Positions 13,055 through 15,903 of a DNA stretch of 64,000 nt are shown here, in pieces. How positions within the stretch are numbered: position 1 is the stretch's first letter; the number at the start of each line of letters is the position of its first letter. Source of the stretch: Tissierellales bacterium (lineage in GTDB: Bacteria; Bacillota; Clostridia; Tissierellales; VENL01); assembly GCA_028280805.1 (NCBI GenBank), contig JANQLB010000106.1, forward strand, positions 62,001 through 126,000. The letters are read 5' to 3'. The notes under the pieces are model-generated. The model was not told the DNA's origin and searched no databases. It was given only the letters and a program-made list of their open reading frames with translations. The translations under genes were made by a program, and so were the position numbers.

Positions 13055-13320
<266 letters not shown>

Positions 13321-13330
13321 AAACTTTATA

Positions 13331-13424
13331 TGGCGGAGAGAGGGGGATTTGAACCCCCGAGACGGTTATCCCCGCCTACCCGCTTTCCAGGCGAGCGCCT
13401 TCAGCCAGACTCAGCCATCTCTCC
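13331..13424 (-). tRNA. tRNA-Ser(GGA)
   Basis: 94 bases including an encoded CCA. Acceptor GGAGAGA pairs with TCTCTCC, the anticodon loop CTGGAAA gives anticodon GGA, a long variable arm marks a type II tRNA, and the T arm has GGTTCAAATC. It is co-transcribed with the SRP RNA. Confidence 0.97.
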
Positions 13425-13494: not shown

Positions 13495-13523
13495 ATTATA
13501 ACTAAATAGCACTGTTATGTCAA
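13495..13523 (-). promoter_or_regulatory. Consensus promoter of tRNA-Ser and SRP RNA
   Basis: Minus strand TTGACA (13523-13518), a 17-base spacer, then TATAAT (13500-13495): a perfect housekeeping promoter 70 bases before the tRNA. A weaker TTGACT lies just downstream. Confidence 0.88.
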
Positions 13524-13524
13524 G

Positions 13525-13563
13525 TCTCTTAGCCCATTCCATTTTATGTAACAGGCTAAGAGA
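13525..13563 (-). terminator. Hairpin after the DUF948-like gene
   Basis: Perfect ten-base inverted repeat TCTCTTAGCC / GGCTAAGAGA, 18 bases after the stop at 13581. No T run follows; instead the -35 of the tRNA/SRP promoter abuts it, so it may insulate that promoter rather than act as a standard terminator. Confidence 0.45.
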
Positions 13564-13580
13564 TATTTAACTATTTCACA

Positions 13581-14051
13581 TTATGTTTGAGTTTTATTTG
13601 AGCGTGAAAAAAAGTCACTTACACCTTTTATAATCTCTATAGCTATCTTTACATATGAAGCAATTCCTTTTGTTCCAACTTTTAGCGTTGCGACAGTTTC
13701 ATTTATACCATCTGTTATCCCAGTAATTGTGGTACTTACCTTTTCAATATTTTCTTTTGCTTCACCCGTAATTAATGTAACACTGTCAATAATATCTGGC
13801 ATAGCGTTGCTCACATTGTTTATTCCCTCATCAACATTATTAGTAATATTTTCAACATTGTCTACAATGATTGGTAGTGAAGAAATAGTTTTTTCAATAT
13901 TCTGTTCATTTGTCTCTATAACTTTATTAATGTTTTTTAATGTTTTATTAAAATTCCTTATAGCCAAAATTATATATATACCTAAAGTCATAACTAAAAC
14001 AAATAGTAGAAAAATTCCTATACTTTGAAAAGAAATCGTAAAATCTAACAA
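13581..14051 (-). CDS. DUF948/YtxG-like membrane protein
   Basis: 156 residues. One N-terminal membrane helix (about 9-31) is followed by a long, heptad-like helical region rich in Asn, Ile and Val (NINKVIETNEQNIEKTI...), as in DUF948/YtxG proteins. It starts at TTG behind AGGAGG. It sits 59 bases after a YtxH-type gene; in Bacillus the ytxGH pair is a general-stress unit, which fits the pairing here. Function in the family is not well defined. Confidence 0.75.
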   Translation of the reverse strand: MLDFTISFQSIGIFLLFVLVMTLGIYIILAIRNFNKTLKNINKVIETNEQNIEKTISSLPIIVDNVENITNNVDEGINNVSNAMPDIIDSVTLITGEAKENIEKVSTTITGITDGINETVATLKVGTKGIASYVKIAIEIIKGVSDFFSRSNKTQT

Positions 14052-14109
14052 TTGATTACCTCCTAGTTTAATTTTCTTGTATTGTTTATAATTTTAATAT
14101 AAACTAAGT

Positions 14110-14415
14110 TTACTGTTTGTCCGATTTTTCCTCAGAGTTTTTAGAGCTTGAATATGTAAATTTCATTTTTTTAGGAATTATATCTTTATTGTTTTTAATA
14201 TTTTTTGTAATTGAATTAGTAGCTTGTTTAAATTTTTCAGCTACCTTTTTTGTGCTCCTTTCTAATTCTTGTCTTGATTCTTTACCAGACTTAGGTGCAA
14301 TTAATATTCCTGCTGCAACACCTATAATTACTCCAAAAAGTATTCCAGCTCCTACTTTTTTAAAACTATTCTCACTTTTATGATTGTTTTTTTCTAAGTT
14401 ATTTTTATTTGACAT
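14110..14415 (-). CDS. YtxH-domain protein
   Basis: 101 residues. A glycine-rich membrane segment GAGILFGVIIGVAAGILIAP followed by KSGKESRQEL is the YtxH signature, followed by a basic tail. AAGGGGTG precedes ATG. It probably forms one unit with the DUF948-like gene, and a stress role by analogy with ytxH is an inference. Confidence 0.85.
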   Translation of the reverse strand: MSNKNNLEKNNHKSENSFKKVGAGILFGVIIGVAAGILIAPKSGKESRQELERSTKKVAEKFKQATNSITKNIKNNKDIIPKKMKFTYSSSKNSEEKSDKQ

Positions 14416-14554
14416 TTTATCACCCCTTAAAAGTATTATATCAATATTATACCAATCTTAAATAGATATATCACTTTTTTATTTTTTATATTACTGTTTT
14501 TTAACAAATTTATTTATTAATTTGACATAATACTATTATTTAGGAAATTAAAGT

Positions 14555-14719
14555 AAAAAAAAGATAGAACAGATATGGGGGGATCTGTTCTATCGGGTAG
14601 ATAAATAAGCTAAAATTGGGGGATATATTTGTATATATTGGATATATACAATATATGCCTAAAATATTATATTAAGGGACAAAAGCTTAATAACTAAAAT
14701 AAATCTTAAGCTTTAACAA
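14555..14719 (-). ncRNA. Candidate C-rich small RNA with intrinsic terminator
   Basis: No open frame explains this stretch, yet the minus strand holds three perfect hairpins in a row: AAAGCTTAA/TTAAGCTTT (14714-14682), TTGTATATAT/ATATATACAA (14651-14629), and a 12-base stem GATAGAACAGAT/ATCTGTTCTATC (14594-14563) followed by eight T. The terminator loop is CCCCCCAT, and a single-stranded CCCCC lies between hairpins two and three (14622-14618). C-rich loops of this kind occur in Gram-positive small RNAs that pair with Shine-Dalgarno sequences. The 5' end is estimated from a promoter-like sequence; the terminator is certain, the rest is inference. Confidence 0.6.
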
Positions 14720-14725
14720 TTTCAT

Positions 14726-14753
14726 ATTATCATATTTTGTCGTATTTTGTCTA
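14726..14753 (-). promoter_or_regulatory. Putative promoter of the small RNA, with Spo0A-box-like repeats
   Basis: Minus strand TAGACA (14753-14748), 16 bases, GATAAT (14731-14726). The region overlaps two TTTTGTC motifs (14735-14752) close to the Spo0A box TGTCGAA; a further TTTTGTCGAA lies near 14880-14890. The assignment is tentative. Confidence 0.4.
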
Positions 14754-14927
14754 GTATTTTTTAAATTTTATTAAAATTTTTTATTTTTAATAAAATATTT
14801 ATACGCATTAATCATGCTTTACTACTGATTATTTAAAGGTTTTGACTAGTCTTGTTATGTAAAAAACAGCACCGCAATTATTCGACAAAAAAAGACAAAC
14901 GGTTTTAATATATTAAATTTTTTATAA

Positions 14928-15830
14928 TTAAGCATTTGAGGATGTAATATTTTTACTAACATTAACATCTGTTGTTTTATATGGTTTATTCATAGGAAAC
15001 CATACTGTAAATACTGTACCTACTTCTTCAAAACTTTCAACATTAATTTTACCATTATTCTTTTCAATCATCCTCTTTACTATGCTTAATCCATATCCTC
15101 TTTCATTCTGATTGCCTTTAGTAGTAAAACCTTTTTCAAAAACTTTATCATATAACTCAGGAGATAATACTGGATAAGAGTTCCCTATAGAAATCACATA
15201 GTAATCACCTGATTCAAAAATATCTATCATTAAATATTTATAACCTGTTCTGCACTGTTGTAATTCATATATAGCATTATCAATTAGATTAAATAATATT
15301 TTACAAGCATCTACTGAACTCATTTTCAGATACTGTAAATCACACCTTATATCTAAATCAACAAAAATTCCCTTATTTTCTGCAATAGCACATTTTCTGA
15401 ATAAAATAGCAGCTATTTCAATGTTCTTAATTTTTGAAATTGAAAATACTTCTTCAACTCTTTCTGATATGCTGAAAATATAATCTAAAGCTTTATCATT
15501 TTTCTGTAGTTGAAGCATTCCTGCTACTACATTTAAATGATTTCTAAAATCATGTTTTTGTGCTTGAAGAGCAGTAATTACTTCCTTAGAATTATCAAGT
15601 TTAATGCTGCTATCTTTTTGATTTTTTAGAAGCCTCATTATATAATATATTGATATAACTCCTGCTACAGTCAATATATTAATCATAACAATAACAAAAA
15701 AAGGATAATTGTAATTTTTAATACAATTCTCTAATGAATTGACTAAAGATTTATTGAATAATAATATTACAGATATATTCTGTATTAAAATTATTAATAT
15801 ACATATATATGCTTTAGTTTGCATTTTCAT
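14928..15830 (-). CDS. Sensor histidine kinase, SPOB/GHKL type, orphan
   Basis: 300 residues. Two membrane helices (about 8-27 and 43-66) leave only a short outer loop. The Spo0B-type dimerisation helix with phospho-acceptor H93 (QKHDFRNHL) follows, then a GHKL ATPase with N box ILFNLIDNAIYEL and G box GYGLSIVKRM. The form resembles AgrC-like and CitA-like kinases. No response regulator and no intact AgrB/AgrD-type genes lie nearby, so its partner is unknown. TAGGTG precedes ATG. Confidence 0.85.
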   Translation of the reverse strand: MKMQTKAYICILIILIQNISVILLFNKSLVNSLENCIKNYNYPFFVIVMINILTVAGVISIYYIMRLLKNQKDSSIKLDNSKEVITALQAQKHDFRNHLNVVAGMLQLQKNDKALDYIFSISERVEEVFSISKIKNIEIAAILFRKCAIAENKGIFVDLDIRCDLQYLKMSSVDACKILFNLIDNAIYELQQCRTGYKYLMIDIFESGDYYVISIGNSYPVLSPELYDKVFEKGFTTKGNQNERGYGLSIVKRMIEKNNGKINVESFEEVGTVFTVWFPMNKPYKTTDVNVSKNITSSNA

Positions 15831-15903
15831 ATAAACACCTACAATTCAAAAGTAGTTTTATAGTCATACAAGTTTTAACCTTTCTTTATTCAAGAAAAAA
15901 TAT

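Follow-up and report, generated by a model that had tools for sequence, protein, structure and literature searches.

In the window, that is, the whole 64,000-nucleotide stretch of DNA analysed here, the minus strand between 14755 and 14555 carries a free-standing unit composed of a promoter, a predicted transcript of about 166 nt, an intrinsic terminator and runs of C (table 1). The unit also occurs in two relatives of the source genome (G000), a Thermohalobacteraceae MAG of the Tissierellales (G001) and the cultured Sporosalibacterium faouarense (G002), both named through a named-genome scan. All three genomes belong to the Thermohalobacteraceae, and the conservation comparison rests on n = 3 independent family genomes from three genera. 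In each of them the unit precedes ytxH and a DUF948 gene on the same strand. On its other side, a V-ATPase subunit gene (assigned by reading open reading frames) precedes it in G001 and G002, and in the window a Spo0B-type histidine kinase (SPOB_a plus HATPase, 14928-15830) lies directly upstream, a gene absent at that place in both relatives. In other families of the order, the ytxH loci searched had no C-rich unit accompanied by the tandem boxes. Downstream of the DUF948 gene the window holds a bacterial large SRP RNA together with a tRNA gene (13056-13424), a pair also seen in the relative L036.

Table 1. Features of the unit and its surroundings in the window (positions of the window).
Feature	Position	Strand	Remark
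Promoter-operator block ACTAGACAAAATACGACAAAATATGATAATAT	14724..14755	-	30-bp core: G002 identical, G001 with one change
Tandem 0A-like boxes TTTTGTCGTATTTTGTC, 10 bp apart	14735..14751	+	Over -35 and spacer
-35 hexamer TAGACA	14748..14753	-	Promoter scan
-10 hexamer GATAAT	14726..14731	-	Promoter scan
Predicted small RNA, about 166 nt	14555..14720	-	Start inferred from -10
5' hairpin P1	14682..14714	-	Folding; not evidently conserved in relatives
C-motif 1 CCCTTAA (CCCCTTAA in both relatives)	14672..14678	-	Comparison of three copies
Central hairpin P2, immediately before C-motif 2	14623..14657	-	Folding and relatives
C-motif 2 CCCCCAA (CCCCAA in G002, CCCCCAA in G001)	14616..14622	-	Comparison of three copies
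Terminator hairpin, CCCCCC loop	14563..14594	-	G002 likewise with C6 loop, G001 with U-rich loop
T8 tail of terminator	14555..14562	-	Sequence, terminator scan
TTAAGGGG (ytxH ribosome site), complement of C-motif 1	14423..14430	-	Possible target
ytxH (YtxH family), conserved neighbour	14110..14415	-	PF12732, 1.9e-15
DUF948 (ytxG-like) gene, conserved neighbour	13581..14051	-	E 3.8e-07, below family cut-off
Perfect 0A-type site TTTTGTCGAA	14881..14890	-	Upstream of unit

The most conserved part is the promoter. When 60 related genomes were searched at the DNA level, two of them matched clearly, G002 with 30/30 identity and G001 with 29/30, in each case over the first 30 bases of the unit; the 26-bp core promoter is found exactly, in one copy per genome, in all three family genomes examined, and this near-invariance holds although the neighbouring YtxH proteins share only 35-39% identity. 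The 26-mer is absent from the order's 246 remaining genomes with up to three mismatches allowed, a class-wide search of 391 sampled genomes added just one weak match (2 mismatches, L363), and the unit had no match in plasmid and viral collections. To judge by its hexamers, TAGACA-16-GATAAT at 14753-14726 with 10 of 12 consensus positions, the promoter is of near-consensus sigma-A type. Since promoter-scan matches of such quality are no commoner in real sequence than in shuffles, the case for it lies in its conservation and not in its score. The TTTTGTC repeats that the preliminary description had placed in front of the unit are present, but they do not lie ahead of the promoter: they are the promoter itself, covering the TAGACA -35 and the spacer.

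The predicted RNA

The structure first described can be read directly on the minus strand: three inverted repeats, a 12-bp terminator stem (GATAGAACAGAT-CCCCCCAT-ATCTGTTCTATC) followed by T8, a C6 loop and a CCCCC upstream of it. RNA folding also yields three hairpins. The transcript taken alone (14720-14555) folds with a z-score of -7.31, and the stretch 14555-14753 with one of -5.9, none of 200 shuffles being equally stable. A terminator scan over 13500-15900 returned a single terminator-like site, that of the unit. The C6 loop is predicted to be 100% unpaired in G000 and is open in both genomes that carry it (G000 and G002), while the openness of the two C-motifs varies. In motif 1, the probability that the C-run is unpaired is 0.78 in G000 (CCC, 14678-14676), 0.99 in G001 and 0.00 in G002, so that it is open in two of three genomes; in motif 2 it is 0.15 in G000, 0.85 in G002 and 0.01 in G001, open in one. 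The second CCCCC (14622-14618), earlier taken to be unpaired, is thus predicted to be free over its whole length only 15% of the time.

Outside the promoter the three copies have diverged, yet the order of elements is the same in all: (C)CCCTTAA, a hairpin, CCCC(C)AA, an A/U-rich stretch and the terminator. The pairing of P2 is retained through altered sequence, as GTATATA..TATATAC in G000, AGTATA..TATACT in G002 and ATATAC..GTATAT in G001. A MAFFT alignment of the whole unit puts motif 1 of G001 in the wrong place. Within the family genomes, the arrangement CCCTTAA..CCCCAA..T5 occurs at this locus only; an order-wide search for CCCTTAA..CCCCAA..TTTTT gave matches in 46 of 249 genomes, those outside the family looking, from the listed sequences, like coding sequence or chance. 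Two single-base runs of at least five on one strand within 166 nt are rare as well (27 windows among 23,032 sampled, the locus itself supplying some of these). Rfam searches at gathering and permissive thresholds placed no family near threshold for the unit or for its related loci.

It is the relatives that decide for a small RNA gene: the promoter-operator is near-identical in three genera, and the body has drifted around C-motifs, a central hairpin and a terminator that were kept, with no coding frame common to the copies, the reverse of the pattern (a frame conserved, hairpins and C tracts not) that the preliminary description had named as refuting. The preliminary call of a small RNA gene is in this respect well sustained by promoter, strong fold, terminator and conservation. 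Conservation of these elements, and of the place beside ytxH and DUF948, is shown by sequence and marks the unit as a stand-alone gene of the family Thermohalobacteraceae. We hold it highly likely that 14755-14555 (minus strand) is a real small regulatory RNA gene and, very probably, one previously undescribed, in salt-loving spore-forming anaerobes.

The tandem boxes and Spo0A

Direct repeats spaced by 10 bp are a generic feature of response-regulator sites. The conserved block has just this form, a direct repeat with a 10-bp period (GACAAAATAC GACAAAATAT; on the opposite strand TTTTGTCGTA TTTTGTCTAG), and the exact tandem is found at a single place in G000 and in G001 and at four places in G002, of which this is one. 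The core of the Spo0A box is TGTCGAA, contacted at G2, C4 and G5 (PMC3485338). Box 1, TGTCGTA, agrees with it in six of seven positions and keeps all three contacts; box 2, TGTCTAG, agrees in five of seven and keeps G2 and C4, without the G5 contact base. Both are invariant across the three genera, although, the boxes overlapping the core promoter, promoter function could account for part of that conservation. Spo0A and SpoIIGA are encoded in all three genomes, and an 0A-type site lies upstream of spo0A (TTTGTCGAAT in G000 and G002, ATTTATCGAAT in G001), within a region (L104:933-942, L105:962-971, L106) that has a conserved stretch GGAAATAAATA.CATTTGTCGAATG in G000 and G002; boxes of the 0A type are therefore plausible for the family. 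Upstream of spoIIGA (L108, L109, L110), all three genomes share a TTTTTCGACTTCA..TGACA..TATAATAGTC promoter that resembles the Spo0A-activated spoIIG promoter. Thus, what had been called a promoter with Spo0A-like boxes has the right form (a tandem at 10 bp, unchanged across three genera whose genomes encode Spo0A), while the boxes stay putative and the second lacks G5. The further, perfect TTTTGTCGAA site upstream of the unit was not found at the corresponding place in G001 and G002. Counted genome-wide, TTTTGTCGAA falls 5- to 7-fold short of its reversed control (12 against 69 in G000, 3 against 22 in G001, 7 against 38 in G002), as if there were avoidance of strong 0A boxes or of the TCGA word within TTTTGTCGAA.

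A near-identical promoter, TAGACAAAATTCGACAAAATATGATA, which reads a perfect TGTCGAA in the same frame on its opposite strand, occurs in Anoxybacillus (L050:5326-5550, L044:1536-1650, L035, L051). There it precedes a different short hairpin unit with terminator (GTCCATAGAATAGTA.GTTTCCCTTGCG..CGCAAGGG-T7), of which L050 carries two tandem copies, beside a tRNA. This unit, which has no Rfam match, is possibly another Spo0A-linked small RNA.

In the preferred reading, the operator is a tandem 10-bp response-regulator site whose boxes are most likely 0A boxes. One could instead start from a real RNA whose operator belongs to some other response regulator using 10-bp direct repeats and whose role is unrelated to sporulation. 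The generic nature of such repeats, the departure of box 2 from TGTCGAA, and perfect TTTTGTCGAA sites in G000 that do not lie mainly before sporulation genes all speak for this alternative, to which we give a minor but substantial share of probability. It has to contend with the TGTC core retained in both boxes and G5 in one, with the conserved 0A-type site before spo0A, and with Anoxybacillus, where a Bacillus-like 0A box is expected and where the same promoter carries TGTCGAA in that frame. On balance we lean slightly towards control of the RNA by Spo0A. Spo0A~P would more naturally act as a repressor, because the boxes cover the -35 and spacer of a normally spaced promoter, and the RNA is probably repressed by it.

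Targets and rival explanations

The preliminary description had the RNA aimed at GGGGG Shine-Dalgarno sites and listed genes of the window that have them. Such sites are real, but they are not special to those genes: 34/410 (8%), 51/365 (14%) and 22/241 (9%) of the genes sampled in the three genomes have one (approximate counts, the background statistics coming from partial stretches of genomes and the gene starts from a simple script). Being common in all three, they make that list a general genome feature. With accessibility included, 20 start regions of G000 pair with the real RNA at or below -10 kcal/mol, against 32-102 for its 11 dinucleotide shuffles. All shuffles pair better, and a broad aim at GGGGG sites finds no support beyond composition; the greater structure of the real RNA likely explains its fewer pairings, and a narrow set of targets could still be accommodated. 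Exact UUAAGGGG sites precede the starts of 25, 19 and 46 candidate genes in the three genomes, among which there is one clear orthologous pair. This pair (L302, L343) is a lactate-permease-like gene, so identified by reading of its sequence, with a TTAAGGGGG ribosome site in G000 and G002. spo0A itself has a GGGGG ribosome site in all three genomes and is a plausible target by eye, but its pairing rank (96/410 and 25/365) is not above background.

The neighbouring operon offers a more specific lead. It holds one (T)TAAGGGG ribosome site per genome, before ytxH in G000 (TTAAGGGG) and G001 (TAAGGGGG) and before DUF948 in G002 (TTAAGGGGG), whereas TAAGGGG sites precede about 2% of the genes sampled in the three genomes. 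This pattern was noticed after the fact. Its joint probability is near 1e-4 when both genes of each operon are counted and no correction is made for how the motif was chosen. By duplex energy the operon genes with TAAGGGG rank only 81/410, 31/365 and 7/241. In B. subtilis, stress and transition-state sigma factors control the ytxGHJ operon, which would be in keeping; a literature search on sigma-factor control of ytxGHJ gave no confirmation. We treat the ytxH/DUF948 operon as a lead, a tentative target that is less likely than not. That the RNA acts through pairing of its C-motifs we regard as reasonably likely.

Could the unit do without a regulatory RNA at all? Its position, same-strand and upstream of ytxH in all three genomes, would suit a cis-acting leader or attenuator of that operon in place of a free RNA; yet a strong terminator ends it, ytxH has a promoter-like site of its own (14474-14446), and in G002 an additional 99-aa gene sits between the RNA and ytxH, all of which leaves the leader improbable. 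Alternatively, only a strong promoter and terminator may be under conservation, with an RNA body that is functionless or acts by transcriptional interference alone. We consider this unlikely too, if a little less so. The poor conservation of the body, start-region pairing not above that of shuffles and UUAAGGGG sites without a conserved regulon are what such a body would give, but CCCTTAA, CCCCAA and the hairpin between them were kept while the remainder drifted, and the three copies fold with z of -7.3 in G000 and of -3.9 and -2.9 in the relatives. A short peptide product, for which every copy has some short TTG frame, was rejected as very improbable: the frames reach at most 10-29 codons (the longest per copy being 13, 13 and 29), have no ribosome site, differ between copies and share no sequence common to the three. 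A trans-acting RNA remains the preferred reading.

Proposed mechanism and known systems

Overall, we suggest that a sigma-A-type promoter transcribes a non-coding RNA of about 166 nt that would end at the intrinsic terminator. Since the boxes cover the -35 and spacer, and the promoter needs no activator, Spo0A~P would bind both and block RNA polymerase. The RNA would then be made in growing cells and, Spo0A~P repressing its promoter, be shut off once cells begin the transition towards sporulation. For as long as the RNA is there, its C-motifs would pair, probably with Hfq (encoded in all three genomes, the RNA having the U-rich tail of its T8 terminator), with a restricted group of G-rich ribosome sites, those of the (U)UAAGGGG(G) type, and keep translation low, the ytxH/DUF948 operon being the best single candidate. 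We put the model of a C-rich trans-acting RNA expressed from a sigma-A-type promoter under a tandem 0A operator and repressed by Spo0A~P somewhat above even. More speculatively, the RNA may form a double-negative switch that frees mRNAs with G-rich ribosome sites, ytxH/DUF948 first, at the onset of sporulation, and the similar operator-promoter on a different Anoxybacillus RNA may reflect a Spo0A-small RNA module that recurs in Firmicutes; we would not yet bet on this extension.

To our knowledge, the regulatory RNAs described in Tissierellales are few, and a single pathogen is the main source of what is known on how Spo0A and small RNAs are linked in clostridia. The locus is a compact, harmless and directly testable case, with a single promoter, its two boxes, a single RNA and, next to it, a named operon, and the tandem-box promoter common to Anoxybacillus is a search handle for further such RNAs. 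In RoxS/RsaE of Bacillus and Staphylococcus, short C-rich motifs of the CCCCUUUG type block ribosome sites; our RNA shares the use of short C-rich motifs, but these are CCCUUAA and CCCCAA, its promoter control is different and it has no Rfam family match. Compared with known Spo0A-regulated promoters (PMC3485338), the likeness lies in tandem TGTC boxes at 10 bp, with G2, C4 and G5 kept in one, and the difference in putative boxes that lie on top of a non-coding RNA's core promoter. In Clostridioides difficile, SpoX and SpoY act on the spo0A mRNA (PMC10267692) and show that small RNAs work around Spo0A in clostridia. They are alike by description, being small RNAs tied to Spo0A in a clostridial spore-former with Hfq, whereas here spo0A is no standout predicted target. 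The closest working analogue is IsrR of Staphylococcus, a 174-nt RNA with a sigma-A promoter, a terminator and repressor boxes conserved across the genus, whose three C-rich regions are directed at G-rich Shine-Dalgarno sites, G-runs being the mark of such sites in its AT-rich genome (PMC9410917). Near-equal length, a sigma-A promoter with conserved boxes, a terminator and C-rich regions are common to both, a likeness of features; IsrR is Fur-controlled with verified targets (PMC9410917), while the operator here is 0A-like and the targets are candidates. With its own promoter and terminator around a non-coding transcript, and C-motifs conserved across species, the unit is by its sequence best read as a C-rich trans-acting RNA that would work like RoxS, FsrA and IsrR.
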